Source: Microcaldota archaeon
GTDB taxonomy: Archaea > Micrarchaeota > Micrarchaeia > Anstonellales > Bilamarchaeaceae
Reading direction: 5' to 3'
Length of the DNA: 32,027 nucleotides
NCBI GenBank assembly: GCA_013425455.1
Contig: JACCLI010000023.1
Location: forward strand, 1 to 32,027
Made by a program: the position numbers and the translations under genes. The notes beneath the pieces were generated by a model that saw only the letters and a program-made list of their open reading frames with translations, made no database searches and was not told the origin of the DNA. Positions 581 to 23,921 of this stretch are shown here, in pieces; within the stretch, counting starts at the first letter, position 1, and every line of letters starts with the position of its first letter.

Positions 581-621
581 ATTGGTCATTCCTTTACTTT
601 TTTCACATTTTTACTATTCCT

Positions 622-630
622 TTTTAAACA
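622..630 (+). promoter_or_regulatory. TATA-box-like element (TTTTAAACA) for the 651 gene
   Basis: TTTAAACA 28 nt upstream of ATG 651, with TTACAC at 636-641; spacing fits a leaderless or short-leader archaeal promoter. Confidence 0.5.
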
Positions 631-650
631 CTTACTTACACTCCTATTTC

Positions 651-1367
651 ATGCAAAAACAAGCACCCAGAAATAACACTGCGATGCAATGGGGACCGAG
701 GCTGGACGGCGACCTTCGGAAGCCCAGAATCGCGAAGTGCACGAACGAGGAGGAGATAATGAACCTCATGGCGAGCGTGCGCTGGGAGCACATGAAGCTG
801 GGGCTGAAGGAGGCGGCGCTTAGTAAAAAGGATTCGCTTGTGCCCGCGGTAGCATACCTTGCGAAGCACGGGTGGAACGACAACCTCAGCGCGCAGCTCA
901 ATGCGAGGGAGGAGCAGTTCAAGAACATAGAGGCGAGGATTCTCGCGGAGAAGCTGGAGGCGCAGGGGAAGATAGGGAGGAGCACCATGAGCCTGCTCAT
1001 ACCTGCATATGTGATGGATGAAGTGAGGAGTTCCCCGGATCCGAGGAAAACCGCACTTGAGTGGAGGGAAAAGCTCGCAAACCTTGAGAGGCTTGAGCGC
1101 AGGATAATCAGGAAGAGAGCTGTGGAGGCGCTCGGGGAGATAGGTACCTCCGCAGCGATCGCCGAGCTTGTGAAACTGCTCTTTTGCACCGAAGGAAATG
1201 CGGATATGTGGGTGGCGAGTGCCCTGAACCATGCGGCTTCTGAAAATCCGAAGGAGGTTATTCCTGTATTGAGGAATGAGATGAAGGCTCTCGGGGATGG
1301 GGATGGTGCGGAGAAGGCTATGCAAATCCTGAATGCCACTTGCGAGAGGGTTGAGGGGAAGGCTTAA
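651..1367 (+). CDS. HEAT-like alpha-helical repeat protein (first gene of the island)
   Basis: The ORF opens at 495, but the ATG at 651 follows the TATA element; HEAT-like segments such as RAVEALGEIGTSAAIAELVKLL. Confidence 0.7.
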   Translation: MQKQAPRNNTAMQWGPRLDGDLRKPRIAKCTNEEEIMNLMASVRWEHMKLGLKEAALSKKDSLVPAVAYLAKHGWNDNLSAQLNAREEQFKNIEARILAEKLEAQGKIGRSTMSLLIPAYVMDEVRSSPDPRKTALEWREKLANLERLERRIIRKRAVEALGEIGTSAAIAELVKLLFCTEGNADMWVASALNHAASENPKEVIPVLRNEMKALGDGDGAEKAMQILNATCERVEGKA

Positions 1368-1394
1368 TTTACACATTTTTCCATTTTCGATAGG

Positions 1395-1402
1395 TTTAAA
1401 TA
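1395..1402 (+). promoter_or_regulatory. TATA box (TTTAAATA) for the HEAT operon starting at 1426
   Basis: TTTAAATA 31 nt upstream of ATG 1426. Confidence 0.6.
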
Positions 1403-1425
1403 CTCTTTTTGACACTTATTTACAC

Positions 1426-1821
1426 ATGCACAGGAGCCCCAAAGAAACCCCATCCCCACAGCCAGATATGGGAATGAAAAGGCCCTTTACTGCAAAGCCT
1501 GCGCCGGATGCTTACGAGGCGGTCAGGCTTAAGCTTATCCGTGGCCACCACGACGATCTTGTACTTATGGGAAGGGAGGCGGTCCCTTCGCTTTTTGAGG
1601 CCCTTGGGGAGGAAGGCGAGATGGTTCCGCATGCCGCGATGCAGGTCCTGAGGGCGATAGCGAGGCGCGACCCGAAGGGGATGGCTCTTTTGATTACTGA
1701 TTATGTTAATGGGGAAGGCGGGGATTTCCTTGCGCAGCCCGGGAAGGCGAGCGAGGAGCTCCTGAAGGGTCTGCATGAGCTGATGGTTTTGTGCGGGAAG
1801 GGGATGAAAGATGCAGCGTGA
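1426..1821 (+). CDS. Short HEAT-repeat paralog (about one HEAT unit plus conserved C-terminal cap)
   Basis: MHRSPKETPSP...MGREAVPSLFEALGEEGEMVPHAAMQVLRAIARRDPKGMALLITDYVNGEGGDFL...; start chosen after the promoter (ORF track opens at 1333). Confidence 0.75.
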   Translation: MHRSPKETPSPQPDMGMKRPFTAKPAPDAYEAVRLKLIRGHHDDLVLMGREAVPSLFEALGEEGEMVPHAAMQVLRAIARRDPKGMALLITDYVNGEGGDFLAQPGKASEELLKGLHELMVLCGKGMKDAA

Positions 1822-3004
1822 GTTGAAGAAACCTGAGAATGGCCCTGTGCAGGGAAAGGGGTTCCCAAAGGAACCCATGGAAAATGTTCCTGCGGAAAGG
1901 ATACGGGAAATGCTTCTTGGGCGAAAGTTCGAGGAGGCTGCCGCAATGGGGGAGAGGGCCATCCCTAACCTTATTTTGGCTTTGGGGGATGAAGACAAGG
2001 GGGTGCGGAGTGAAGCGGTTTGTGCGATTGTTGCAATCGGCGCGCCTGCGGTTCCTGCGCTTGCTTCGGCTTTGAAGGATGGGAATGGAAGGGTGCAGGA
2101 GCAGGCGGCTTTTGTGCTTGTGAAGATAGCTGAGGGGCATCCGCTTCGCGACTGGAGGGCGGCTCTTCCCACGCTTGTTGAATCCCTGAGGAGCGGGAAT
2201 ACATGGGTGCGGGGGCATGCGGCCCAGGCGCTTGAGATTCTTGTGGAGAAGCATCCGGAGTATGAATGGGCGGGCGCGGTTCCTGTTTTTATCGAGGCCC
2301 TCGGGTGCAAGGACCCATCGGTGCGGGCGCGTTCAGCCGGGGCGCTGAAGGAGATTGCGAAGAGGCATCCTGAGTATGACTTGGAGGAGGCTGTTCCTGT
2401 TCTTATTGAAGCTCTGAATGATGAGAATGCATGGGTGAAGAGGTGCACGTATGAGGCGCTCAAAAATATTGTGAGGGGACACTCTGAGCATGGGTCGGGG
2501 AAGGCCATTGCTGCCCTTGTTGAGTGTTTGAGGCGTACTGATGAATGGGTGAAGTTTCGGGCGTCGGAGCTGCTTGTGGAGATAGGCGCACCCGCCGCCC
2601 CCGCGCTTATCGGACTCCTTGGGGATGTGGATGACGATGTGAGGAAGATTGCTGCTACGACGCTCGTGAAAATCGGCCTGGGCACCCTGACGCTCAAAGA
2701 CAGGGTGCTGTGCCTGCTGGCGCTCAGCGAGACAGATGACGTTATCGCCATCGGGATTTCTGCTGTTCCCGCGCTTGTCGAATGCATGAAGCACAGGGAC
2801 GAGGACATGTGGCAGAAGGCTGTTTTTGTGCTCGGGGAGATGGCGAAGGCGCGGCCGGAAGAGGTTGCCCATGCCATTGTTGATTATGTGAACGGGAATG
2901 GCGGGGATGCGCTTCTTGAGATAAATGAAGGGAACGATGGGGCCGCCCGAGGGATAAGCCAGGTTTTGCTGAAATGCGGAGAGGTAATGCAAAATGCAGC
3001 GTGA
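1811..3004 (+). CDS. HEAT-repeat protein, type-A N-terminus
   Basis: MQRELKKPENGPVQGKGFPKEP..., many HEAT units (EKHPEYEWAGAVPVFIEALGCKDPSVRARSAGALKEIAKRHPEYD), C-terminal cap IVDYVNGNGGDALLEINEGND..CGEVMQNAA; 11-nt overlap with the previous gene. Confidence 0.9.
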   Translation: MQRELKKPENGPVQGKGFPKEPMENVPAERIREMLLGRKFEEAAAMGERAIPNLILALGDEDKGVRSEAVCAIVAIGAPAVPALASALKDGNGRVQEQAAFVLVKIAEGHPLRDWRAALPTLVESLRSGNTWVRGHAAQALEILVEKHPEYEWAGAVPVFIEALGCKDPSVRARSAGALKEIAKRHPEYDLEEAVPVLIEALNDENAWVKRCTYEALKNIVRGHSEHGSGKAIAALVECLRRTDEWVKFRASELLVEIGAPAAPALIGLLGDVDDDVRKIAATTLVKIGLGTLTLKDRVLCLLALSETDDVIAIGISAVPALVECMKHRDEDMWQKAVFVLGEMAKARPEEVAHAIVDYVNGNGGDALLEINEGNDGAARGISQVLLKCGEVMQNAA

Positions 3005-3875
3005 ATTGAAGCACTCCGGAAACCCCGAGGGGATTTCAAAAAAGGAGAAGCTGAGCCGCAGGGTTTGGAAGCACCTGATGGACACCGACAAGAGTGAAAC
3101 CATCAACGCATTCAGGTGGATTAAGGCAAATGTTGATTTATGGAGGGGGAACTGGAGCTCTGGCCACCCGGGAGGGCTTGGCAGCACATCTGGATGGGGC
3201 GTGAAGGTCCTTGAGAAGGCGCTCATAAGAGGAGATGAAGAAACGCGCTTGAAGGCTGCAACTGCGATGGGGCTTGCAGATTATCACCGCCCGTCACGCA
3301 CGGCTCCGGCGCTATTAAGCGCCATGGAAGGCGATCCCAGCGAAGGGGTGAGGCTTGAAGCCGCAACTTCCCTAGGGCTGATTGCCTATCAGGCGATTCA
3401 TATGGAGTATGAATGGGGATGGGAATTGCTGATGCCGCGCCTGGAAAACCTTCTTGGCGACTCTTTGTTGAGTAGGAGCGCGCTTCGCATAATAGGTTCT
3501 GTTCTGGAATACCAACCATACGCTGATTGTGACTCTCTAGTGAAAAAGGTGTTGGGCATCATCATTGCGGAGAGCAACGATAATTATATTGAAGCGATAA
3601 CCCGCGAAATCCTTGAGAGGCTCGGCGTCCATGGGATTCCCAGCCTGGTCAAGGCAATCGGAAATGCAAACGAAAAGGCGGGCGAGGAGGTTGCATATGC
3701 GCTCTGTAAGATTGCGAAAAAGCATCCGGAAGAGGTTGCTTCCGAGATTATTGACTATGTGAACGGGAGAGGCGGAGATATTCTTCTTGAAATAAACGCG
3801 CAGAATGATTTTGCTGCCAGCGCGCTTAATGAAGTGCTGAAAGAATGCGGAGAGGCGATGGAAAATGCAGCATAA
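2994..3875 (+). CDS. HEAT-repeat protein, type-B N-terminus
   Basis: MQRELKHSGNPEGISKKEKLSRRVWKHLMD...; cap IIDYVNGRGGDILLEINAQND..ECGEAMENAA; 11-nt overlap with the previous gene. Confidence 0.88.
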   Translation: MQRELKHSGNPEGISKKEKLSRRVWKHLMDTDKSETINAFRWIKANVDLWRGNWSSGHPGGLGSTSGWGVKVLEKALIRGDEETRLKAATAMGLADYHRPSRTAPALLSAMEGDPSEGVRLEAATSLGLIAYQAIHMEYEWGWELLMPRLENLLGDSLLSRSALRIIGSVLEYQPYADCDSLVKKVLGIIIAESNDNYIEAITREILERLGVHGIPSLVKAIGNANEKAGEEVAYALCKIAKKHPEEVASEIIDYVNGRGGDILLEINAQNDFAASALNEVLKECGEAMENAA

Positions 3876-4905
3876 CGAGCCTCCGGTGATAAAAATCAGA
3901 TGCATAGTGCTGGACGACACGAAGCGCGGCAAATTTCCGAAGGAGCCCCTGAGCGATGGGGACAATTCAATGCACTACGAACGGGTGGAGGGCCTTCTCC
4001 GCGCTGGAAAAACCGCTAAGCTCCTTAGGATCGGCATTCCCGCAGTAAAGGGGCTCATTAAGGCGTTTGAAAACCCGGAGCTGAAGGCTGCCGCTTCGGA
4101 AACTCTCGGGCGCATTGTGGCGCAGCATCCTAAGTCGGACTGGGAATTTTCCGTGGAATTCTTCCTGAAAGCTTCTGAGGATGCGGACAAGCGCATGCGC
4201 GAAAATGCAATTGCCTGCGCCCTCAGGATTGCGCTCGCCCATCCGGACTACGACTGGTCTGGTGCTATCCCATTGCTGATGCTGGCTTTTGGGATGGAAG
4301 CCCCTATCGATTTTGATGCGGCGGGATTGTTCAGGAGAATCTCGGAGGCCCATCCGGAATATGACCTTGGGAAGGCGGTGTTCCATCTTGCGATGATGGT
4401 CGAAAAGAGGCATTATGGATGGGAGGACGCGATTGTTGCGATGGGAAACATAGGGGATGTGTCTGCGGTGCCTGCGCTGGAGAAGGTTTCGGGCTATTCA
4501 TGGAATGTGCAGAAGGCTGCTGCTGAGGCGCTCGGGAAGATTGTGGAGAGGCATCCTGAGTACGATTGGGGGAGAACCGCGAGGGCCCTTATCTCATTCG
4601 GTTCATTTGATGAAGGCATCCTGCTGGAAGTGAGTGCCGCGCTTTTGAAGATGGGGCCGAAGGCCGTTCGTGCGCTTGTCGAGGCCCTGGGGGACGAGAA
4701 TGTGCTGATGCGGGAGCGTGCCCTTCATGCGCTCGCGAATATGGTGGAGAGCCGCCCCAGGGAGGTCGCGCTTGAGATTGTCGGGATGGTGAATGGAAAT
4801 TTCGGGGACAGGCTGCTTGAGATACACAGCTCAAACGAGCGCATGGTGCAGGGGCTCCATCATTTGCTGCTCAAATGCGGAGAGGCGATGGAACATGCAG
4901 CGTGA
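3865..4905 (+). CDS. HEAT-repeat protein, type-A-like N-terminus (RGKFPKEP)
   Basis: HEAT units with HPEYDW-like motifs; cap IVGMVNGNFGDRLLEIHSSNE..KCGEAMEHAA; 11-nt overlap with the previous gene. Confidence 0.88.
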   Translation: MQHNEPPVIKIRCIVLDDTKRGKFPKEPLSDGDNSMHYERVEGLLRAGKTAKLLRIGIPAVKGLIKAFENPELKAAASETLGRIVAQHPKSDWEFSVEFFLKASEDADKRMRENAIACALRIALAHPDYDWSGAIPLLMLAFGMEAPIDFDAAGLFRRISEAHPEYDLGKAVFHLAMMVEKRHYGWEDAIVAMGNIGDVSAVPALEKVSGYSWNVQKAAAEALGKIVERHPEYDWGRTARALISFGSFDEGILLEVSAALLKMGPKAVRALVEALGDENVLMRERALHALANMVESRPREVALEIVGMVNGNFGDRLLEIHSSNERMVQGLHHLLLKCGEAMEHAA

Positions 4906-6322
4906 ATTGAGGCACTCCGGAAGCCCTGAGGGGCATGCGAACGTTTTCAGGAGGGCATGGAATCATCTTACTGATTGGGAGATTAGCCCAGTGCTGAGAG
5001 GGATCAGGGAGAGGAGGATGAGAAAAGCCGAAGAGCTAATCGGCGAGCAGAAATGGGAGTCGGTCATGAAGATGGGCCGCGCCGCAGTCCCGGCCCTTAT
5101 CAGAGCCTTTGGAAAATTTGGCCCGGCAAGGAGCATGGATATCGTATGGGCGCTGGTCGGGATAGGAACCCCGGCGATTCGCGGGCTTGTTGGCGCGCTG
5201 AAGGATGAGGACGATTTTATCCGGGAATTCTCCGCCAAGGCGCTTGCGGAGATAGCAAAAAAGAAACCTAAATACAAATGGGATAAGCACGTTCCTGCAC
5301 TCATGAAGGGGCTCGAATACGGGGTGGGAAAGGGCGCAAGGGCAAATGTCGCAACATTGCTTGGCGAAGTTGAAGATGCGCGGGCATTGCCCGCCCTCAT
5401 CCTGGCGCTCAAGGATGATGATACCCATGTGATGACCTGCGCAAGGGATGCCCTGGTCAAGAAGGGCAAGCCTGCAATAGATGCATTGTATGCAGCATTG
5501 GGCAACGAAGACCCCGAAATCCGTGCGCATGCCGCATGGGCAATCTCTGGAATGAAAAGTGAACTTAAAATCGAAGGGCTCGAAGTGGCTGTGCCTACGC
5601 TCATAGGGCTGTTGGGGGACGGCAACCATGAGGTGCAGAGAAATGCCTGCGATGCATTGAGATATGTCGGGGATTCTTCCGCCATTTTGCCGTTGTATGA
5701 ATTGATGATGGGAAAGGATTCGTCTTTCCTTGAACTCCCTGCCGGAAAATTTGTTGAACTGATGGAGGGGGGTGGAACTAGGGCCGGCGAAATCGTAAAG
5801 GCAAGGGGCATCATAGCAGGCGCTGTCCTTGCGCTGGAGGACCTCGCAAAGAGGCACCCCGATTATGCATGGGAGCCCATGTTGCCGGGCTTCCTAAAGC
5901 TGGTGGAGAGCAACGACGCGTGGCTCCAGCAGATAGCCTCGGGGGCGCTGGGCTCGATAGCGGAAGGCCATCCTGAATACGAATGGAGTGATATAGCGCC
6001 CAAGGTTGCGAGAACATTATGCGTGGACCGGGGGCGTGTTGGAACACAGGCCGACAAGGCGCTGGTGAAAATGGGCATGGTTTCCGCAAAACCGCTCATC
6101 CTTGTAATGAATAACGAGCACGCGGCCCCATGGGCGGCGAGCGCACTTACGGAACTCGCAAAAAAGCACGCGGAAGATGTTGCGAAAGAAATAATCAAGG
6201 CAGTAAATGGGAAATTTGGGGAAACGCTGCAGGAAATCAGCACCGCAAACGGAATGGCTGTGCAGAATTTGAGCGACATATTGCTGGAATGCGGAAAGAG
6301 GATGGAAAATGCAACATCTTAA
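4895..6322 (+). CDS. HEAT-repeat protein, type-B N-terminus, largest paralog (about 475 aa)
   Basis: MQRELRHSGSPEGHANVFRRAWNHLTD...; multiple HEAT units; cap IIKAVNGKFGETLQEISTANG..ECGKRMENATS. Start placed at the overlap ATG (ORF track 4793). Confidence 0.88.
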   Translation: MQRELRHSGSPEGHANVFRRAWNHLTDWEISPVLRGIRERRMRKAEELIGEQKWESVMKMGRAAVPALIRAFGKFGPARSMDIVWALVGIGTPAIRGLVGALKDEDDFIREFSAKALAEIAKKKPKYKWDKHVPALMKGLEYGVGKGARANVATLLGEVEDARALPALILALKDDDTHVMTCARDALVKKGKPAIDALYAALGNEDPEIRAHAAWAISGMKSELKIEGLEVAVPTLIGLLGDGNHEVQRNACDALRYVGDSSAILPLYELMMGKDSSFLELPAGKFVELMEGGGTRAGEIVKARGIIAGAVLALEDLAKRHPDYAWEPMLPGFLKLVESNDAWLQQIASGALGSIAEGHPEYEWSDIAPKVARTLCVDRGRVGTQADKALVKMGMVSAKPLILVMNNEHAAPWAASALTELAKKHAEDVAKEIIKAVNGKFGETLQEISTANGMAVQNLSDILLECGKRMENATS

Positions 6323-6791
6323 GGGAAAGAAACCTGAGAACGGCCCTGTGCGGGGAGCTTTTCGGAAGGAGCCTTACGCGAGCCCCGCGGAAGTGGAAAA
6401 GATGAACCTGCTTCTAAGGGAAAGGAAAGAGCAGGAAATCTTGAGGATGGGAAAGGGCGCCATTCCTGCGCTGGTAGGAGTGGTGAAGGAGGAAAGCCTT
6501 GTGTGGATGGGCACGGCCGCCCTCATGCTCGGAAAGATAGGAGTTCCCGCGCTTCCAGCGCTGGTTGAATGCCTTTGGAGCGACAGGCTCCAGGTGTCCA
6601 CGAGCCCGGTGTTGGCGCTGAGGATGATCGCATCAGCGCATCCGCGGGAAACTGCAAGGTGGATTGCATCTTATGTGAACGGGGAGGGTGGAGAGAGGCT
6701 CGCCAGGACTGATGAGAAGACAAAAAGGGCTTTTGATGTACTGAATAAGATGATGGAAATTGCAGGAGAGAGGATGGAAGATGAAGAGTGA
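6309..6791 (+). CDS. Short HEAT-repeat paralog, type-A N-terminus
   Basis: MQHLKGKKPENGPVRGAFRKEP...; cap IASYVNGEGGERLARTDEKT; 14-nt overlap with the previous gene. Confidence 0.85.
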   Translation: MQHLKGKKPENGPVRGAFRKEPYASPAEVEKMNLLLRERKEQEILRMGKGAIPALVGVVKEESLVWMGTAALMLGKIGVPALPALVECLWSDRLQVSTSPVLALRMIASAHPRETARWIASYVNGEGGERLARTDEKTKRAFDVLNKMMEIAGERMEDEE

Positions 6792-7773
6792 GAAGAAAAA
6801 ACCCCAAGAAAACCCTTTGCAGGGAAAAGAATTCCCCAAAGAGCCAGCAGTGGAAGGAAAACAATCTGCAGAATACAAGAATATTAGGTCTAAGCTTTAT
6901 GCGGCAGAAGTAGAGGAGGTTTTGGGAATATGGAAGGAAAATCTAATCCCTTTCCTGAGATGCCTGAAAGACGAGAACATAAATGTAAGAATGAATGCAA
7001 AAATTGTCTTCGATAGGATACATGATGAGGCGGTCCGGTTCATCATCGGCGAGTTGCAGAAAAACAACGAAGAATTCTGGGTTGTTGCCTCCGATGCGCT
7101 GGGGGAAAGGGCGCTGGACCAGCCGGAATATGACTGGGGCCCCGCGGCCCTGACGCTGAACAGGGCAATGAGGATTAACAACAGCAGAATGCACGAGCAC
7201 GCTTCTGACGCGCTCGTGAATATGGGGAGGCACGCCGTTCCGATACTGACTGAGGACCTTAGGTCGTCCAAGAACCGGGCCAGGTGGCGCGCCGCAACCG
7301 CGCTGGGGAAGATTGCGGAGAATCACCCGGAGTACGATTGGAGTGCTACAGCCTGCGAGCTGGTCATATCATTAAGCGACGACGAGGAATGGGCGAGGCA
7401 GGAGGCCTGCAAGGCGCTTGGGAAAATGGGGAAATACGCGCTGGAAGAGTTGAAGAAAGGCATGAAAATGGGCAGCCCCATCTCCCGCAAATACTTCATG
7501 GAAGCCTTCGGCCTTGTCGGGGATGTTTCCGCATTCCGAATTCTCCTAGAAGCTGTGAATGATGGGGATAATGCCGTGAGATCCCATGCAGTGATTTCGC
7601 TTTCCAGTATCGCGGAAAGGAACCCGAAGGAGGCTGCCGCCATTGTAACTGATTTGATAAACGGAAGGATGGGGGACGAACTCATTGAGATAAGCCAGAA
7701 GAACGACCGCATAATAAAAGCCCTGAACAACGTGATGGTCGTTTGCGGGGTTAGGATGCGCGATGGGGAGTAA
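6781..7773 (+). CDS. HEAT-repeat protein, type-A N-terminus
   Basis: MKSEKKKPQENPLQGKEFPKEP...; cap VTDLINGRMGDELIEISQKNDRIIKALNNVMVVCGVRMRDGE; 11-nt overlap ATGAAGAGTGA. Confidence 0.87.
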   Translation: MKSEKKKPQENPLQGKEFPKEPAVEGKQSAEYKNIRSKLYAAEVEEVLGIWKENLIPFLRCLKDENINVRMNAKIVFDRIHDEAVRFIIGELQKNNEEFWVVASDALGERALDQPEYDWGPAALTLNRAMRINNSRMHEHASDALVNMGRHAVPILTEDLRSSKNRARWRAATALGKIAENHPEYDWSATACELVISLSDDEEWARQEACKALGKMGKYALEELKKGMKMGSPISRKYFMEAFGLVGDVSAFRILLEAVNDGDNAVRSHAVISLSSIAERNPKEAAAIVTDLINGRMGDELIEISQKNDRIIKALNNVMVVCGVRMRDGE

Positions 7774-7803
7774 AGTGTTGTAGAAAATGGATAAACAGCA
7801 ATA

Positions 7804-7811
7804 TTTATAAA
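7804..7811 (+). promoter_or_regulatory. TATA box (TTTATAAA) for the MoxR-VWA-HEAT operon
   Basis: TTTATAAA 30 nt upstream of ATG 7834, with TTACAC at 7815-7820. Confidence 0.6.
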
Positions 7812-7833
7812 GAGTTACACGCAGTATATTATT

Positions 7834-8817
7834 ATGTCCGCACCTACAGAAGTAAAACCAGGGAAGATTCTCTCCCCCAACGGAGTGATAGTTCCGACGA
7901 GGGAGTTCGCCAGGAAGCTGCTTGAGGGGAAGGCAGTGGATGGCAGGGTAAGCCCGTACGTGAGCCAGGACCATGAAGTACAGGTGGTCAAGGCGGCAAT
8001 AAGGGTCGGCCTTCCGATAGCGCTCTGCGGCTCCCATGGAATGGGAAAGACCACGCTCATCGCGAACATCGCGAAGGGCACGGGCCTCCCGATGGTGACC
8101 GTGATGGGGGACAAGGTAAGGGCGGCGCAGCTCCTCGGCGAGGAACGCGACTTCCCGGACGGGAGCATAGAATGGAAGAGCGGCCTCGTGGACATTGTCG
8201 TGAGGGCCAACTATGGAATACTCTTTATAGATGAGTTCGTGAACATGAGGGCCGACGCTCTCACCTCGATCTCGAACCTCCTTGACGACAGGAAGAAAAT
8301 CGCGCTCAGGGAGACCGGGGAGGAGCTGGACGCCCTGGATGTGGTGCTCGTGGCGGCATTCAACCCGCCGCCCAGCGACATGAGGGTCTCGCTGCCGACC
8401 CCGGCGACCTTCGACAGGTTCGTGATGTGGAAGTGGGGCGTGGCGGACCCGGTCGGGACGCTCCTGAAGATGTACGATGCGATAAAGGCGGGGAACACCA
8501 GCGGGATAAAGGTGGACCGCATGAGCCCGGACGAGGTGCTCGACAAGGAGCCCTACATCGCAAAAAAGCACGGCGCAGCGCTTGGCGAGATCGTGAAGGC
8601 GATAAACTCCGAGGCAACCAGGATAATGCTCACCCCTTACAAAGATTTGGAAGACCCGGTGAGGGCGATAAGAAACGCAATCAGGCTTATTGTGGGCGGC
8701 CTGGAGCCGCGCCTTGCCGCGATGGCCGCGCTCGTCTATCCAATGAACCCGGTCAAGGGGCAGGAGATAGCCGAATTCGAGACCGCGGCTAGCAAGCTCA
8801 TAGACACGAAGATATAG
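7834..8817 (+). CDS. MoxR/NorQ/CbbQ-type AAA+ ATPase
   Basis: Walker A GSHGMGKTT, Walker B ILFIDEF, and the fold order of MoxR-family ATPases, followed directly by a VWA gene. Confidence 0.88.
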   Translation: MSAPTEVKPGKILSPNGVIVPTREFARKLLEGKAVDGRVSPYVSQDHEVQVVKAAIRVGLPIALCGSHGMGKTTLIANIAKGTGLPMVTVMGDKVRAAQLLGEERDFPDGSIEWKSGLVDIVVRANYGILFIDEFVNMRADALTSISNLLDDRKKIALRETGEELDALDVVLVAAFNPPPSDMRVSLPTPATFDRFVMWKWGVADPVGTLLKMYDAIKAGNTSGIKVDRMSPDEVLDKEPYIAKKHGAALGEIVKAINSEATRIMLTPYKDLEDPVRAIRNAIRLIVGGLEPRLAAMAALVYPMNPVKGQEIAEFETAASKLIDTKI

Positions 8818-8827
8818 GTGCTAAAAT

Positions 8828-11413
8828 ATGGCCGTCGGAACCCTCCGCTCCCCGACGCGGGCAGAGGCCCGCGAAGCCCTTGTGGCCAACCTCAGGGAGA
8901 TGAAGAGGGCCGGCGAGATAAGCGAGAGGACGCTGGAAAACGCGCTGAAGGACATCGCGCAGCTCACCGCGATGGAGCCCACGAAGGAGGACATAAAAAT
9001 CCTAGACAAATTCTACGAATTCGCAGGAAGCAAGAGCAAGATGAGCGGGTTCATAGCGAAGGCGCAGGCATCCTCCCTCCTTTACATCCTGAGGAAAAGA
9101 GGGCCGGAATTCCTGGAATCCTGCGCAAGGGCTTTCGTGATGCTGGAGGGGCATGCGCTGCCCCAGCTCGGGATGCTCAGGCCCAAATCCCTCAAGGAGC
9201 TCTGCCTGTTCAAGGAAGGCGCCGTGGAGGAATACGTGAAATGGGCGCTGGAAAAGTATGAGAAGGAGTGGGGGAAGAACGAGCAGTACCTGTTCAGGGC
9301 CTCCACGTTCGAGGTGGACAGGGAGGAGGTGAAGAAGTACCAGATTTCCGAGAACGCAGTTTTTCTCGTGGATGTGATGGGGAGCCTGACGCAGTTCGCA
9401 AGGATGCTCTTTAGGAGGGAGCTGAATGTGCGCAAATCCAGGGGCTCGGTCTCTTACACCACGGAAGAAAGCTCGGTGAGGCTGTACCTGGTCCCTGTTT
9501 CAGACATTTATGATACAAAGGAGGAGAACGAGAGGCGCTATTACCTGACCACGGGGCACGAGGCATCCCACCAGTGCAGGGGAAGCTTTTTCGTGGACGT
9601 GCTAAAATTGGCCGCGGAAATGGAGAAGAAGGGGGTAAAGATATTGGAGGTGGAGTTCGAGGAGAAAAGCCTGAAGCTGAAGAGCATGAAGGTGCAGGAG
9701 GAGGGGAAGGCGCCATGCACCATTGTGAGGTTCTGCGACCTTTTGACGCTCGCATTCAAAGAGGATGCGAAATTCCTGCACCACCTCTGGAACATCCTCG
9801 AGGACTGCAGGATTGAGTGCTGGATGTATGACGCGGACATAAAGGGGACGATGCGAAGGGGCGCCCAGGAGCTCAAGAGGAAACTTTTCACAAAGATGCA
9901 TGAGGAGGGGGTGGTGAAGGAGAATCTTGAGGGTGCGATTTCGTCCCTCCTTGCATTCGGCTCATTGTGCTCTGCCGCGGACTCAAGGAAGGATGTCATT
10001 TGCGCACTCCGGGGCCAGCCCCATGAAGAGCTTTCGGAGCACGATTCGTTCATATTGGAGGCCGTGGGCAAAATGGCACCGAAGAACCGCGAGCTGCTCT
10101 TTTCGATGATTGATGATTATGAGATTCTTTTTGCGGAGAGGAGAAACGAAAGCACGAAGAGCTACCTTTCCGCCCTGAAATTGTACGACAAGCTGAAGGA
10201 CATGCCTGGCAAGGAGAATATTGGCCCGGACATCCCGTCCGGAGGCACGGACATAGACCCCGAGAACATGATAATCAAGATAGGGGAGAAGGGGGAGGGG
10301 GATGGAGAGGTAGACATAGACGACCTGCCCCCTGAATTGAGGAAAAAAGTGCTTGATGCGATGAAGAAGGCCGGGATTGAACCGAAGGAAGGGAAGAAGC
10401 CCGGAAAAGAAGGCGAGGAAGGCAAGGTTCCGGGGGAAGAAGGGAAGGAGGATGGTGGCGGGAAACCCGGAACGGAAAACCGGAAACCGGAAATCGGGAA
10501 CAGGAACAAGATATACGGGGACTGGAGGGAAAGGGAGCACGGAAAGGATGAATATTCGCTCGTGAAGACCATGGAACTGCCGGAGGGGGCGTGCCATTCC
10601 GACCCGGCGCTCTCACGCATCATTTTCAGGGAGGTGAGGAGGCTCCTCGTTACGGAAGTCAGGCAGGTGGAGGGGCCTTCAGGTGACATGGTGGAAAGGG
10701 ACCTGAAAAGGGAGTGGGTGAGGGATAGGAAGAGGGGGATATGGCGCCCGAGGGACTATTTCATAGAGGAGGAAACCATCAGCACAAGGAGCCTCGCCGT
10801 ATTCGTGCTCGCGGATGCGAGCGGCTCACAGGGCATGCTCATCAACGGAAAGAGGAAGATAGATTACATCAACATGGCGACCCACAGCCTCGCGGAAGGG
10901 CTGCATGGGATACCGGGGCTCTCCTTCGGTTACGGGTACTTCCAGAGCTCGGGGAGGGAGGACACGCGCCTTTACATCGGGAAGGAGCTGGACGGGCCCC
11001 TAAGGTTCGGCTCCGTGGAGCCCGGATTGGCGAACAGGGACGGGGTGGCGATAAGGAGGGCGGGGAAGATACTCCTGAAATCCAACTCCTCGGTGAAGAT
11101 TCTCATACTCGTGACTGACTCGATGCCTGCGGATGACGGCGAATATACCGGAAAGTATGGATGCGAGGACGTGCAGCAGGCGTTCTCGGAACTCAGGAAA
11201 AAGGGGATAATTCCTTTTGCGATAACCGTGAAGCCTGAGGAGGCCTACTGGAAGGGGATTGGCTCCAAATTCGAAACCGTTGAGCAGTACCTGGATTTTC
11301 TTTATGGAAGGAATTACCATCATCTTATCCATTCGGAGAAGGAAGTGTGCGACGCCATTTTCAGGTTCGTGCGCATGACTCTGCCCAGGCTGAGGACGGT
11401 GGAGTACGAATGA
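8828..11413 (+). CDS. VWA-domain protein (NorD/CbbO/CobT-like) with putative HExxH metallopeptidase region
   Basis: C-terminal MIDAS-like FVLADASGS...NRDGVAIRRA...ILVTDSMPADD; central TTGHEASHQ and LWNILEDCRIE; acidic Gly/Lys/Glu linker between. Confidence 0.85.
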   Translation: MAVGTLRSPTRAEAREALVANLREMKRAGEISERTLENALKDIAQLTAMEPTKEDIKILDKFYEFAGSKSKMSGFIAKAQASSLLYILRKRGPEFLESCARAFVMLEGHALPQLGMLRPKSLKELCLFKEGAVEEYVKWALEKYEKEWGKNEQYLFRASTFEVDREEVKKYQISENAVFLVDVMGSLTQFARMLFRRELNVRKSRGSVSYTTEESSVRLYLVPVSDIYDTKEENERRYYLTTGHEASHQCRGSFFVDVLKLAAEMEKKGVKILEVEFEEKSLKLKSMKVQEEGKAPCTIVRFCDLLTLAFKEDAKFLHHLWNILEDCRIECWMYDADIKGTMRRGAQELKRKLFTKMHEEGVVKENLEGAISSLLAFGSLCSAADSRKDVICALRGQPHEELSEHDSFILEAVGKMAPKNRELLFSMIDDYEILFAERRNESTKSYLSALKLYDKLKDMPGKENIGPDIPSGGTDIDPENMIIKIGEKGEGDGEVDIDDLPPELRKKVLDAMKKAGIEPKEGKKPGKEGEEGKVPGEEGKEDGGGKPGTENRKPEIGNRNKIYGDWREREHGKDEYSLVKTMELPEGACHSDPALSRIIFREVRRLLVTEVRQVEGPSGDMVERDLKREWVRDRKRGIWRPRDYFIEEETISTRSLAVFVLADASGSQGMLINGKRKIDYINMATHSLAEGLHGIPGLSFGYGYFQSSGREDTRLYIGKELDGPLRFGSVEPGLANRDGVAIRRAGKILLKSNSSVKILILVTDSMPADDGEYTGKYGCEDVQQAFSELRKKGIIPFAITVKPEEAYWKGIGSKFETVEQYLDFLYGRNYHHLIHSEKEVCDAIFRFVRMTLPRLRTVEYE

Positions 11414-12258
11414 CACTCAAGCTTCTTCTGCCAAACAATCCTGTGCAGGGAAAGGCCCAGCCTCCGGAGCCGCTTGGGGAAAGGAGGGCAGACATCACGC
11501 CGGAGAGATTGAAGCAGATGCTGAAGGAAGGGGCACATAACGATATCATAAGGATGAGGAAGCCGCCAATCACAGTGCTCATCGGAGCGCTTGGGGATGA
11601 AAATGAAGACATTGCCCAGGATGTGAGCAGGCTGCTTTCGGAAATGGTTGAGAGAAAAAAGAAATTCGATTGGAGCGTGCATATCGACAAACTTGCGGAG
11701 GCAATGGGGGGGAATGGCATGGGGCATGTTTATGCGGCAGCCATTGTTGCGAAAATCGCATTCAAGCATCCGGAATATGATTGGAGCCCCGTGGTGCCGC
11801 TTATGATCGAGGATGTGCGGAATGGAGGGGCGGGCGACAGGACGCGCGCAATTAATGCGCTGGGGAACATGGAGGAAGTTTCTGCAGTGCCTGCAATAGT
11901 TGAAGCTCTTGAAAAGGAAATTGGAAGCGGCCCTCTCGGGGCGGCTGTGCGCGTGGAGGCCGTGAAGGCTCTTGCAAAGATTGCGGAAAGGCACCCTGAA
12001 TGCAACTTTGTTGATGCCATCCCTGCAATTCTCGATGCCCTGGTGGATGAAAACCTGGATGTGCGGGGGCACGCGGGTGCGCTGATGAAAAGGATGGCTG
12101 AGCGGCACCCGAAGGAAGTTGCCTCCAAAATAATAGAGTTGGTGAATGGCAGGCTTGGGGACGAACTCAAAGAGGTAAATTCAAGGAATGGGGCGCTTGC
12201 GGCAGTGATAAACAAAATCCTGCTCAAATGCGGAAAGGCGATGGAAGATGCAGCGTGA
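11410..12258 (+). CDS. HEAT-repeat protein, type-A-like N-terminus
   Basis: MTLKLLLPNNPVQGKAQPPEP...; FKHPEYDWSPVVPLMIED; cap IIELVNGRLGDELKEVNSRNG..KCGKAMEDAA; ATGA overlap with the VWA gene. Confidence 0.87.
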   Translation: MTLKLLLPNNPVQGKAQPPEPLGERRADITPERLKQMLKEGAHNDIIRMRKPPITVLIGALGDENEDIAQDVSRLLSEMVERKKKFDWSVHIDKLAEAMGGNGMGHVYAAAIVAKIAFKHPEYDWSPVVPLMIEDVRNGGAGDRTRAINALGNMEEVSAVPAIVEALEKEIGSGPLGAAVRVEAVKALAKIAERHPECNFVDAIPAILDALVDENLDVRGHAGALMKRMAERHPKEVASKIIELVNGRLGDELKEVNSRNGALAAVINKILLKCGKAMEDAA

Positions 12259-12261
12259 ATT

Positions 12262-13476
12262 GTGCACTCCGGAAGCCCCGAGGGGATTGCGAAGAAGGGG
12301 GTGTTCCGCAGGGCTTGGAATCACCTTACTGATTTTAGCGAGAGCCCTGCGCTCAATGCGATGAGGAGGATGAAGGCGGAAAGGCTTGTGAAGGAAGGCA
12401 GATATGATAAGGCGGTTGGGCTTGGGAAGAATGCGGTTCCCGCACTGGAAAAAGTGCTCTTCGGAAAGGACCCGGAGAAGAGGTTCTTGGCTCTGGATGC
12501 GCTTTTGAAAATCGGCAATCCGGGAATCCCTGCGCTTGGAAAAGCGCTCCATGACGATGTTATTGCAATCAGGGCGCGGGCGGCCACTTCGCTTTATGAT
12601 AATTCAAATTATTTGAGGCTGGAGAGCGTTGGGGACAGGGTCCTCTGCCTGCTTCTTAAGGAGGAGCCGGAAGCTGCAGCGGAGTACGGGGCAGAAGCCA
12701 TTCCCGCATTGGTTGACGCCCTGGATGACAAGCTGGGGTCGGTAACCTCCCAGGCCCTCAAAGCGATGGTTCTTATCTCACAAAAAGGCGTGGAATGCGG
12801 CTGGGAAGGCATTGGGGAGAAGCTAAAGGAGAAGGTTATGAAAAAAGGAGTTGTGCTGCAGGCAGATTTCATCGTGGCGCTCGCTAAGATAAGGGGCCTT
12901 GCGGCCGCGCCATTCCTTGTGGGGCTTCTGGAGAGAAATGACAATCTGGCGCAGGATGCAGCACACCAGCTTATGGATATTGTGAGGAAAGGCCCGGAAG
13001 AAGATTGGAGGTGGGCGATGGGCGCATTCGCCAGGGCGATGATGTGCGGCGGGGATGATGCCCTAAGCATATACATGCGGTCGAACATATCTGGCGCAGT
13101 CTTCGAAATAGTGAAAAGGCACAAGGATTACGATTTTACAGAAGTGGTTCCTGCGCTTGTCCGGGTTCTGGGGGACAACCACCCGAACTTCGGTAACTGG
13201 GCTGGGGACGCACTAGAGGAGATAGGGCTTCCTGTGGTTCCTGCGCTTTTGGAAGGGGTGAAACACGGGGAGGGCCTCATAGGGATGAGGTCCGCCTATG
13301 CGCTTGGGAGGCTTGGGAAAAGGCATCCGCAGGAGGTTGGCAATGCCATTATCAGGCTAATCAATGGCGAGTTCGGGGACAGGCTGGCTGAAATCAATGA
13401 GAGGAATGATGAGATTGCAACCGGGCTGAACGAAGCCCTGCTGGAATGCGGAAAAGCGCTTGAAAATGGCGCATAG
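12262..13476 (+). CDS. HEAT-repeat protein, type-B N-terminus, GTG start
   Basis: (V)HSGSPEGIAKKGVFRRAWNHLTD...; cap IIRLINGEFGDRLAEINERND..ECGKALENGA. The ancestral ATG at 12248 is out of frame. Confidence 0.85.
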   Translation: MHSGSPEGIAKKGVFRRAWNHLTDFSESPALNAMRRMKAERLVKEGRYDKAVGLGKNAVPALEKVLFGKDPEKRFLALDALLKIGNPGIPALGKALHDDVIAIRARAATSLYDNSNYLRLESVGDRVLCLLLKEEPEAAAEYGAEAIPALVDALDDKLGSVTSQALKAMVLISQKGVECGWEGIGEKLKEKVMKKGVVLQADFIVALAKIRGLAAAPFLVGLLERNDNLAQDAAHQLMDIVRKGPEEDWRWAMGAFARAMMCGGDDALSIYMRSNISGAVFEIVKRHKDYDFTEVVPALVRVLGDNHPNFGNWAGDALEEIGLPVVPALLEGVKHGEGLIGMRSAYALGRLGKRHPQEVGNAIIRLINGEFGDRLAEINERNDEIATGLNEALLECGKALENGA

Positions 13477-13481
13477 AAACA

Positions 13482-13489
13482 TTTAAATA
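13482..13489 (+). promoter_or_regulatory. TATA box (TTTAAATA) for the 13513 gene
   Basis: TTTAAATA 31 nt upstream of ATG 13513, with TTACAC at 13496-13501. Confidence 0.6.
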
Positions 13490-13512
13490 CACTTTTACAC
13501 ACTAATACATAC

Positions 13513-14145
13513 ATGAGCATCTCCCCTGCAACTGAAGAAGTTAGCCCTGCGAAGACGCTTAGGGGATTCCATGTGCCGAGGGAGCTTGTTGAGTCCATAA
13601 GAAGGCAGGAGGAGGCGAGAAATAGGGAGATGAAGGACAGGATAATGGTTGTGCAGAAGTGCCTGGTGGAGAAGCCCGCAGATGAGAAGGGGAAGGCGGA
13701 GCTCAATTCTGCGATAAGGTGGCTGGGCGAGAATGCAGGAATAATGGATGATGCGCAAAAACTGGGCGCATTCTTCCCGATTGCGAGGCTTGCTGAAGAG
13801 GGATGCGGCTGCGTGGACCCGCTGGAGGCGGGGCTGGCGATGGGCGCAATAGCCGGGAAGCTTGATATCCTGAATGCTATTTTTGACATTATGCGGGAAA
13901 ATCTGATCACAAAGATGAAGAGCGTAATGGAACGCGAAATAGTCAGTGGCATGAACGAAATAGGATATTATGTGATGCTCGTTGCCGCGTTGGGGGAGCC
14001 GAAGGCCGTGAGGCTCGTGCTGTTCTGGGGGAAGATGGGCATGGTTTCGGATGCAGCGGATAGGATTGCCTCCGTACGCCCGGAAATGGTGGAAGGCGTA
14101 AGGAAGGATATTGAAGCTGGGGCGAAGGCCTCGTTGCAAAGGTAA
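13513..14145 (+). CDS. Hypothetical alpha-helical protein, possibly a degenerate HEAT paralog
   Basis: Well-placed promoter; helical segments (EAGLAMGAIAGKLDILNAIFDIM; VAALGEPKAVRLVLFWGKMGMVSDAADRIASV). Confidence 0.7.
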   Translation: MSISPATEEVSPAKTLRGFHVPRELVESIRRQEEARNREMKDRIMVVQKCLVEKPADEKGKAELNSAIRWLGENAGIMDDAQKLGAFFPIARLAEEGCGCVDPLEAGLAMGAIAGKLDILNAIFDIMRENLITKMKSVMEREIVSGMNEIGYYVMLVAALGEPKAVRLVLFWGKMGMVSDAADRIASVRPEMVEGVRKDIEAGAKASLQR

Positions 14146-21414: not shown

Positions 21415-23112
21415 ATGGGGGAAGAGAGGAAGGACTCGGTCCTTTGGGGCAAGGGATTCCAGAGCTGGAGATACTCTTACGAAACCCTGCGGAATTCCAT
21501 AAAGGCCATAAAGAACAGAACCGGGGTCAGCAGCGCAATCCTGGGCAGCACGCAGGGGGTGGAGAGGCACCCGCAGCTTGAGGAGATGAAGCTCACCATG
21601 ATGGAGATCTACATGGAGGCTGCACAGGACCCGCGAATTGGGGCTGTGAAAAGGAAGAGGGGGGAGTTCGAAGCGGCGAAGGAAGCCAATCTTAGCGAGA
21701 TAATGAGAATGTGCGAAAGCCTGTTTGACATCCTGCAGAAAACAGATGAGATAAGGGAAAGGCCCAAGGCAGATACGGGGGACCGGGTGGCTGATGTGTG
21801 GGATGATGTCGCCTATGAGGAAGGGGTGGTCACAAATCCGGAGCTTGATTATCTGGAAGGCAAGGTGGCAGAGATTTGCGCGGACCTGAAGAGATTCCTT
21901 GAAAGCAAGAGCAGCGAGGTTAGGCTTGCGGCGGCAGAGGCGCTCGCAGAGGCAAGGGATGTGCACACGCTTGTAAAGTATGCTTTTAACGAGGTTTTTG
22001 CAGAGAACAGGGCAAGGATTTTGGACAAAATACTGGTCGCGGTGAGGCTTGGCGCTGCGTTGGGCAGCGAAGAGAAATCCATGCTGCTGAAAATGACCGA
22101 GGACATGGATGGGAAGTGCGCGGAGAAGGCGTGGGCGATTGCGCTTAAGCTTTTCGGGAGGAACGAGCTGAACGATGAGCAGATTAGATATCTGATGGCG
22201 AGGCAGACAATAGAGGATGGGGAGGAGAGGGCGGATGCGGCAAAGATGGCCGGGCTGAGGCTGAAGCTCGCGTGCAGCGAAGAGAAGATGGAGCCGGTGG
22301 AGAGAGCGAGCCTTTTCGCAAGGGTGGAGGAGGCGGTCTGGCTTGGGGCGGTGCTGAGGGCCGGAGAGATTGGAATGCTCGTAGGGCTCATTGGGAAGGC
22401 GGAGGGGCAAGTGGCATGCGCGGCGTGGGGCCTCATGATGGAGCTGCTGGGGAAGGATGCGCTGGGAAAAGAGGAGATTGCGGAACTGCTTCGCGTAAGT
22501 GAAAATATTGCGGATGGGCGGGAAAGGAAAAGAATGCAGGCGAGGCTGGAGGAGAAGATGCCTGCGGAAGACAAAAAAGCGGAACCCGAAGAAAAAGCTG
22601 GGGCTGCTGCACCGCCGGTTGTGGGAGAGATAGCCATTGGGACGGAGGAAAGTGCAGGGGAGGCTCCTGCGGAAGAAGCCGGGCCCAGGGTTATTGAAAT
22701 AGATGATAATAGCGCGGATGAGGCGGAGAAACCTGCAGAGGTCAGGGTCATTGTGATGGATGATGAGGACATTCCCATCGACCCGCTGAGCCAGGCGATG
22801 GGGCAGCTGGAGCGGGGCGAGCTTGGGGATGGGCAGGTTACGGAGCTGGTTCTGCTTGCGGACGCGGTTGAAGATAAGGATGGGAGAAAGAGGGTATTTG
22901 ATAAAATATTGATGGTGCTCGGGCCCGGAAAACATTTTAGGGACGAAAGGGCTGATGGAATACTGAATGTGGAAAGGATGTCGCGAGTCTTCCTGGAGAC
23001 GGTAAGGGACGAGAGGCCGAGCGGAGTTCCGATGAGGAAGAGCCAGCCCCCAGCAGCGAACGGGAAGAGGGACAGCGTCCCTCCCGCGGAGAAGGTTTTG
23101 GCAAAGGGTTAG
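21415..23112 (+). CDS. Uncharacterised alpha-helical protein with internal repeats and an acidic Pro/Ala/Glu linker
   Basis: Long ORF, divergent from rdgB; repeated about 75-aa module (see findings). Confidence 0.8.
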   Translation: MGEERKDSVLWGKGFQSWRYSYETLRNSIKAIKNRTGVSSAILGSTQGVERHPQLEEMKLTMMEIYMEAAQDPRIGAVKRKRGEFEAAKEANLSEIMRMCESLFDILQKTDEIRERPKADTGDRVADVWDDVAYEEGVVTNPELDYLEGKVAEICADLKRFLESKSSEVRLAAAEALAEARDVHTLVKYAFNEVFAENRARILDKILVAVRLGAALGSEEKSMLLKMTEDMDGKCAEKAWAIALKLFGRNELNDEQIRYLMARQTIEDGEERADAAKMAGLRLKLACSEEKMEPVERASLFARVEEAVWLGAVLRAGEIGMLVGLIGKAEGQVACAAWGLMMELLGKDALGKEEIAELLRVSENIADGRERKRMQARLEEKMPAEDKKAEPEEKAGAAAPPVVGEIAIGTEESAGEAPAEEAGPRVIEIDDNSADEAEKPAEVRVIVMDDEDIPIDPLSQAMGQLERGELGDGQVTELVLLADAVEDKDGRKRVFDKILMVLGPGKHFRDERADGILNVERMSRVFLETVRDERPSGVPMRKSQPPAANGKRDSVPPAEKVLAKG

Positions 23113-23144
23113 TTTTTTAACCGCTCCTGGAGAAAGGGCGCCCT

Positions 23145-23921
23145 ATGAAAAAGAAATCTATTCCTAAAAGTAGAAAGAAGACCGCGAAAAACACGGTGAA
23201 AAAGGAGGCGACGCCGGAGGTTGCGGCGCTTCCTGCGGAAAAGAAGGTGCCGAAGGAAATAATCGAGAGAAGAAAGAAGCTGATGAAGGACGCGGAGATT
23301 GCGCTGGGCGTCATAAACTCCTACCCGATGCTGAGGACGAGGCAGGAGGTGGAGGCTGCAGAGAAGCAGGTGATGGATTCATACGCGAGGGGCGATGCAG
23401 TCATAAGGCAGTTCATACTTTTTGTAATACACGAGCACCTCTCCAAGGCGGCGAACATGCGCGTGATGGAGAACTTCGAACTCTTCAAGAAAATGATGGG
23501 CGAGAAGGCGGAGGTGCTGGAGGTGAGGAAGAACGTTTACCGCTCCATGTTCAACTATTCCAATTCATTGGAAGGGACGGTGGAGCTGCTCCTCCTCCTC
23601 GGGGATATCGGGGATGTGGGCGCGGCAAAAGTGCTTTCGCGGCACCTCGCGTTCTACATGAGCGGGGAGCAGGGCGGCCTGCACATGCTCAGGAACGCCG
23701 CGGTGGAGGCGCTGGAGAACTGCGGCTGCACCTATGCGCTGGACGTCATTCTTGCATATGCGAAATATGCGGAGAAAAACGAACGTTTTGTGTTCGCGCT
23801 GAGGGACTGGGAGGACAAATTGCAGAAGATGAACCTTGCGGCTGCGGATATGGATGCGTATATGTCTGCGATAAACGAACTGATGATGGTGCGGAAGGAG
23901 AAAGACGTCCATTACGGGTGA
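23145..23921 (+). CDS. HEAT-like protein with a basic N-terminal tail
   Basis: MKKKSIPKSRKKTAKNTVKK...; LLLLLGDIGDVGAAKVLSRHLAFYM...LRNAAVEALENCGCTYALDVILAYAKY. Confidence 0.75.
   Translation: MKKKSIPKSRKKTAKNTVKKEATPEVAALPAEKKVPKEIIERRKKLMKDAEIALGVINSYPMLRTRQEVEAAEKQVMDSYARGDAVIRQFILFVIHEHLSKAANMRVMENFELFKKMMGEKAEVLEVRKNVYRSMFNYSNSLEGTVELLLLLGDIGDVGAAKVLSRHLAFYMSGEQGGLHMLRNAAVEALENCGCTYALDVILAYAKYAEKNERFVFALRDWEDKLQKMNLAAADMDAYMSAINELMMVRKEKDVHYG

Follow-up and report, generated by a model that had tools for sequence, protein, structure and literature searches.

Several described systems pair a MoxR-type AAA+ ATPase with a VWA protein. In the NorQD structures, a finger of the VWA protein sits in the MoxR pore and the partner is twisted by ATP (PMC13036017), while jumbo phages encode MoxR together with a metallopeptidase-fused vWA protein, in CobS/CobT-like pairs for which a role in virion assembly has been proposed (Iyer et al. 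2021, PMC7824862). MoxR-vWA ternary conflict systems add VMAP, iSTAND, FtsH or beta-propeller proteins as third components, some of them hypervariable, with HEAT repeats appearing only as vWA-fused domains (Kaur et al. 2020, PMC7159879).

The window analysed here, the whole stretch of 32,027 nt, is one complete contig (G000:C67) of the 1-Mb genome of a tiny, probably symbiotic micrarchaeote (Micrarchaeota). Like NorQ-NorD and CbbQ-CbbO, which provide the best PDB profile and fold matches, the locus combines a MoxR ATPase with a VWA/MIDAS partner, but it differs by the long N-terminal part of that partner with HExxH, by a linked array of solenoid paralogs and by having no cofactor-enzyme client gene nearby. 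With the jumbo-phage pair it shares a vWA protein with an N-terminal metallopeptidase motif, putative in our case, although the present locus is cellular and archaeal and carries arrays of HEAT or helical paralogs. The ternary conflict systems likewise supplement a MoxR-vWA core, whereas the third component here consists of many separate, constant-tailed solenoid proteins; VMAP, iSTAND, FtsH and beta-propeller were absent from the scanned window proteins, and the core is flanked by HEAT proteins only. Midasin (Rea1/MDN1) and its UBL partners also employ a MIDAS-type VWA with an AAA+ ring, but the subunits here are separate and small, and a partner repertoire replaces the two UBL proteins. The core pair has precedent; the repertoire is provisionally undescribed, no account of such a solenoid repertoire having been found in open PMC text.

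Organization of the locus

Ten HEAT genes (H1–H10), all co-directional, flank the MoxR and VWA genes (Table 1). Nine of them carry a C-terminal cap. The earlier note was right to place a MoxR ATPase and an HExxH-bearing VWA protein inside an array of at least nine HEAT paralogs, and the ATGA that it described between the VWA stop and a HEAT start was recovered at H9. Two small corrections apply to the interval it assigned to the array: H1 is HEAT-like but lacks a full cap, and the 210-aa product of the last gene showed neither HEAT repeat nor cap in the domain scan. A ribosomal protein L15e-like gene precedes the array, whose surroundings in the window consist of common housekeeping genes.

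In the unbroken chain H2–H8, neighbouring genes have 11 or 14 nt in common. Such an overlap, in its usual 11-nt form ATGCAGCGTGA (variants occur), encodes the NAA-stop end of the upstream gene together with the MQREL start of the next. Judged from the DNA sequence, this unit would start behind the TATA-like box TTTAAATA, with operon limits that are likewise predicted. H10 begins 3 nt after H9 with a GTG start, shifted by one base compared with H6.

Table 1. Positions of the array, the core and candidate promoter elements in the window.
Feature	Position	Strand	Properties and basis
TATA-like box of H1	620–629	+	sequence
H1, HEAT-like, 238 aa	651–1367	+	HEAT_PBS 3e-5; without full cap
TATA-like box TTTAAATA	1395–1402	+	candidate from sequence; ~25–30 nt 5' of H2 ATG
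H2, HEAT cassette, 131 aa	1426–1821	+	cap 1633–1818; cap profile
H3, HEAT cassette, 397 aa	1811–3004	+	HEAT_2 2.5e-33; cap profile; 11-nt overlap with H2
H4, HEAT cassette, 293 aa	2994–3875	+	cap profile; 11-nt overlap
H5, HEAT cassette, 346 aa	3865–4905	+	cap profile; 11-nt overlap
H6, HEAT cassette, 475 aa	4895–6322	+	HEAT_2 1.7e-23; cap profile; 11-nt overlap
H7, HEAT cassette, 160 aa	6309–6791	+	cap profile; 14-nt overlap
H8, HEAT cassette, 330 aa	6781–7773	+	cap profile; 11-nt overlap
TATA-like box ATTTATAAA, 5' of MoxR	7803–7811	+	candidate from sequence
MoxR/NorQ-type AAA+ ATPase, 327 aa	7834–8817	+	Pfam AAA_5 5e-12; profile matches; alignment; Walker A GSHGMGKT 8029–8052; Walker B ILFIDE 8218–8235
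VWA protein, 861 aa, putative zincin motif and MIDAS	8828–11413	+	motifs, profile, predicted model; HEASH (residues 244–248) 9557–9571; invariant N..(E/D)D 9791–9805; MIDAS DASGS (residue 663) 10814–10828
H9, HEAT cassette, 282 aa	11410–12258	+	cap profile; ATGA overlap with VWA stop, 11410–11413
H10, HEAT cassette, 404 aa	12262–13476	+	HEAT_2 7e-15; cap profile; GTG start
210-aa protein, membership uncertain	13513–14145	+	own TATA-like box 13482–13489

The MoxR protein, an AAA+ of the MoxR clade, has intact Walker A and B motifs and, in the alignment, the invariant N177 (sensor Asn) and R195; its top profile matches are NorQ, CbbQ and Midasin. Both the VWA domain profile and the predicted model match NorD of the NorQ-NorD complex and Rea1-MIDAS (PDB matches of VWA/MoxR: NorQ-NorD 9qhd, 9qh6 and 9qh8; Rea1-MIDAS 6qta and 6qtb). 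Across ten VWA relatives, HExxH, the downstream N..(E/D)D and DxSGS show no or almost no variation, DASGS and D764 being invariant, and HExxH and MIDAS are kept in all ten array-bearing VWAs, two of Woesearchaeota type included. CobT-like PHROG families match the VWAs of relatives in alignments spanning the HExxH region. No Pfam peptidase match was obtained for the VWA protein, and the putative zincin assignment draws on motif conservation; the predicted model is reliable mainly in the VWA part and weaker around HExxH, and therefore lends the zincin fold no structural support.

Pfam HEAT, HEAT_2 and HEAT_PBS recognized several window cassettes above the cut-off and the rest more weakly. The cap comprises about 60 aa (HPxEVAxxIxxxVNGxxGDxLxEI...CGxxMExAA), and its NGxxG(D/E)xL signature is C-terminal in nine of the ten HEAT genes. 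The corresponding DNA pattern has seven matches in the window compared with 0.01 expected in shuffles, and within its own genome the cap profile matches at nine sites, every one of them inside the array (E 1e-26 to 1e-31), whereas elsewhere in the 301 genomes it gave only weak matches (E above 1e-3). HEAT_2 also occurs on about 13 further contigs of the same genome, in every case without the cap. In duplicated genes, whole-gene omega is ~0.5 and identity climbs at the cap; between genera, caps aligned by hhalign reached a probability of 28%, which is not convincing as homology.

Core and arrays in other genomes

According to the earlier note, its reading would fall if homologous MoxR-VWA pairs in related genomes showed no linkage to HEAT genes; instead, most of them are linked. 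The VWA protein occurs at 10 loci in 8 of 301 Micrarchaeota genomes, and HEAT genes adjoin eight of these loci, up to a maximum of 18 at one of them, with a linkage that spans other genera and one other family. Gene order reads MoxR-H-H-H-VWA-nine HEATs in G007, over two contigs overlapping at their ends, H-H-VWA-H-H-H in G078, over two contigs with the same VWA end, MoxR-VWA-H in G016, and MoxR-VWA-12 HEAT followed by a thermosome-like gene in G020. Genome G009, in addition to these eight loci, has MoxR then HEAT as far as the contig end. Genome G087 has three loci (C22, MoxR-11 HEAT-VWA-7 HEAT; C27, MoxR-VWA-six HEAT; C25, MoxR-VWA-HEAT), and the separate cores on C22 and C27 each lie beside an array with a different constant tail. 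These C-terminal tails are array-specific: KPHDFGxRDT..KDVPKAK on C22, RPSGVREVSERPKD on C27 and PPxRFR..AIGG in G020. The VWA loci without HEAT neighbours are in G050 and on the phage-like contig G048:C46. IMG/VR held no relatives of the MoxR, A4 and A5 queries, leaving a viral home unsupported at that sensitivity, and a comparison with PADLOC anti-phage system proteins yielded weak generic AAA and HEAT-ARM matches and nothing for the VWA proteins.

The distribution of the core is rare and patchy, and it is absent from all four same-genus genomes searched. The genes flanking core and array vary from locus to locus, and a shared client gene was not noticed beside them. The patchiness and the lack of a common client weigh against a reading in which core and solenoids are a housekeeping factor that assembles or loads a cellular complex as NorQD, CbbQO or Midasin do, the number of array genes being a matter of dosage or of numerous stable clients. 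The closest relatives with a solved structure insert cofactors or assemble ribosomes, and the array's neighbours in the window are of the housekeeping kind; nevertheless, a VWA protein confined to so few genomes and missing within its own genus, the lack of a common client and the unconstrained concave faces described below render such a role unlikely.

Shared tails are also seen in HEAT arrays that lack MoxR-VWA: in G285, ~12–13 HEAT genes surround an unknown protein of 554 aa, and G021 has four HEAT genes. Array-core coupling is therefore not universal, and either these arrays connect to other machines or array and core are less tightly coupled than they seem. Regarding the related concern that the HEAT family might be equally frequent at unrelated loci, the answer is divided: HEAT arrays in general do occur apart from the core, but the cap family is, within its genome, confined to the present array.

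As a single-protein query, the window VWA gave no match among the genome contigs. Searching GTDB contigs with the VWA alignment led to two Woesearchaeota-type genomes (L086/G301 and L087/G302), in which overlapping paralogs, at least 14 in the former and at least 23 in the latter, flank MoxR-VWA. Similarity among these paralogs lies mainly in the final 150–250 nt; the G301 members are 64% identical over their last 50 aa and ~27% in their bodies, and in G302 the constant C-terminal end is weaker. No Pfam domain, HEAT families included, was detected in the array members, and the one member that was modelled is helical (pLDDT 57, only the C-terminal 120 aa good) with no significant match in the PDB; given this low confidence, we do not claim a HEAT identity for these bodies. 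Other Woesearchaeota and bacterial VWA relatives carry no arrays, and several of them lack HExxH. As the VWA-domain tree requires at least two changes of array label, the array was likely gained or lost repeatedly.

Variation at the concave face of the HEAT repeats

In the G087 arrays the repeat is nearly invariant except in x-x-V-R-x-x-A-A-x-A-L-G-x. Libraries of artificial alphaRep HEAT binders are randomised at six positions, 18, 19, 22, 23, 26 and 30 (PMC3754942), and the variable positions of G087 map onto these same concave-face positions, where entropy peaks and W/Y/F/H account for up to 36%. Nature and designers vary the same sites, but the repeats here are natural ones, encoded in a genome and linked with an ATPase core, in contrast to an engineered library.

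For pN/pS, homologous repeats of paralogs were compared at the five most variable alphaRep-equivalent positions. The first G087 array (G087a) gave 1.16 at this paratope (jackknife 1.15–1.19) versus 0.43 at other exposed positions (0.41–0.46), the second (G087b) reached 1.11 at the paratope, and the window 1.04 versus 0.47; over all arrays, exposed positions elsewhere in these repeats lay at 0.43–0.49. At core positions (0.27–0.39) the search pattern itself imposes some of the residues, so that the exposed positions provide the fair comparison. Since paratope pN is near saturation, a ratio of about 1 indicates missing constraint and is not proof of positive selection. The search for an ordinary-HEAT ortholog as a control found none. 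These values show that constraint is absent specifically at the concave binding face, with other exposed positions remaining constrained. Binding faces free of constraint point to partners that change quickly, for instance proteins of viruses or hosts, more than to a single housekeeping client.

A ratio near 1 that is not clearly higher, together with the core-less arrays of G285 and G021, could also be expected if a HEAT family had been amplified locally beside MoxR-VWA by chance, with relaxed selection on its faces. We consider this very improbable, as the linkage at eight of ten VWA loci persists across differing genomic contexts, all 87 array genes examined have intact frames with no internal stops, exposed positions outside the paratope are still constrained (0.43), core and cassettes overlap translationally, and a similar design with related cores but non-HEAT bodies recurs in a second phylum.

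A diversity-generating retroelement was rejected for the window's genome, in which no reverse transcriptase was found; RVT_1 was absent from G000, G016, G087, G285, G301 and G302, and its matches in G007, G020 and G078 are not on the array contigs.

The solenoids might instead be clients or effectors, with the core as a threshold switch by which variable HEAT effectors are set free, assembled or proteolytically matured through their constant tails. MoxR-vWA cores governing hypervariable effectors have been described by Kaur et al. 2020, conserved extended tails such as those on C22 and C27 of G087 resemble processing or recognition peptides, and HExxH is retained in every array-bearing VWA. 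However, scans of array members turned up no effector or enzymatic domain, the variation sits on the binding face and is not protein-wide, and none of the third components known from the conflict systems was seen, which leaves this explanation somewhat doubtful.

Proposed working of the core and its repertoire

We regard a MoxR-VWA-putative-peptidase core with a diversified repertoire of HEAT-solenoid receptors, docked through their constant ends, as the best explanation of the data, at a probability of roughly 0.5. Its functional steps, all of which we infer, would begin with a MoxR hexamer holding the VWA finger in its pore, by analogy with NorQD. Whichever solenoid is at hand would then dock on the VWA protein by its constant cap or tail, plausibly with an acidic residue contacting the MIDAS metal, in the way that UBL partners engage Midasin, and the concave face of each solenoid would pick a different target protein. 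ATP-driven twisting or pulling may remodel the selected target, and cleavage by the HExxH domain is conceivable. The earlier note had cast the HEAT proteins as interchangeable adaptors or sensors on one core: constant ends and a variable face are consistent with that part, but a client or effector role would fit them too, and arrays exist that have no such core.

Only tentatively do we extend this receptor model to a general solenoid-binder repertoire with a logic like that of antibody/VLR repertoires or F-box receptors, in which constant docking ends and hypervariable concave faces would serve one ATP-driven unfoldase/metallopeptidase core, assembled more than once in DPANN from different folds. 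The similar rows that related archaea keep around the same machine look like a tool with interchangeable recognition heads. If true, reduced, small DPANN genomes would spend about 10–20 kb on a modular recognition system that, being coupled to an AAA+ machine, would constitute a natural counterpart to designed HEAT binders and to variable-receptor immunity. Such a system would also offer a testable principle of substrate selection for the poorly understood MoxR-VWA class and a way into the conflicts or host interactions of uncultured archaeal symbionts.

The N-termini of the window's family also share recurring elements, either an (E/K)-E-P-L-like motif or FRRxW; the former, picked after inspection, is present in 12 of 29 N-termini compared with 8% in shuffles.

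Start of H10 and further genes in the window

The HEAT cassettes H10 and H6 have their N-terminal coding sequence in common, and a one-base shift in H10 relative to H6 relocates the start to GTG with the frame still intact, which is why the usual 11-nt overlap is missing at H10. Two more genes lie beyond the array; the product of one has 565 aa and a weak resemblance to HEAT proteins, and that of the other has 258 aa.

HEAT arrays in two other Micrarchaeota genomes

The HEAT genes of a divergent array in G285, about 12-13 in number, have the tail HINPxxYPKSF..HWKLTAKQLMAMEGRLK in common and surround one 554-aa protein; neither MoxR nor VWA was seen near this array. Four HEAT genes in G021, a genome in which MoxR-VWA was not found, share the basic tail KPxxxFRRR; an AbiEii-like nucleotidyltransferase gene lies close by.

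Coordinates of the features described
Feature	Location	Positions	Strand
H10 start with one-base shift	window	12249-12270	
Gene pair, 565 and 258 aa	window	21415-23921	
HEAT array (L128)	G285:C11	4501-14100	
554-aa protein	G285:C11	8443-10107	minus
HEAT genes (L129)	G021:C22	2155-8870	
HExxH/VWA, TIR-like (L091)	Leptospiraceae MAG	682-5806	

HExxH and VWA in other neighbourhoods

In a Leptospiraceae MAG, a 1295-aa protein with HExxH and VWA is followed by a TIR-like protein (domain judged by eye), possibly a conflict-type neighbourhood. The HExxH-containing MoxR-VWA pair of G048:C46 (L081) shares its contig with phage-like replication genes, which by eye were single-strand-binding, recombination-like and transposon-like.
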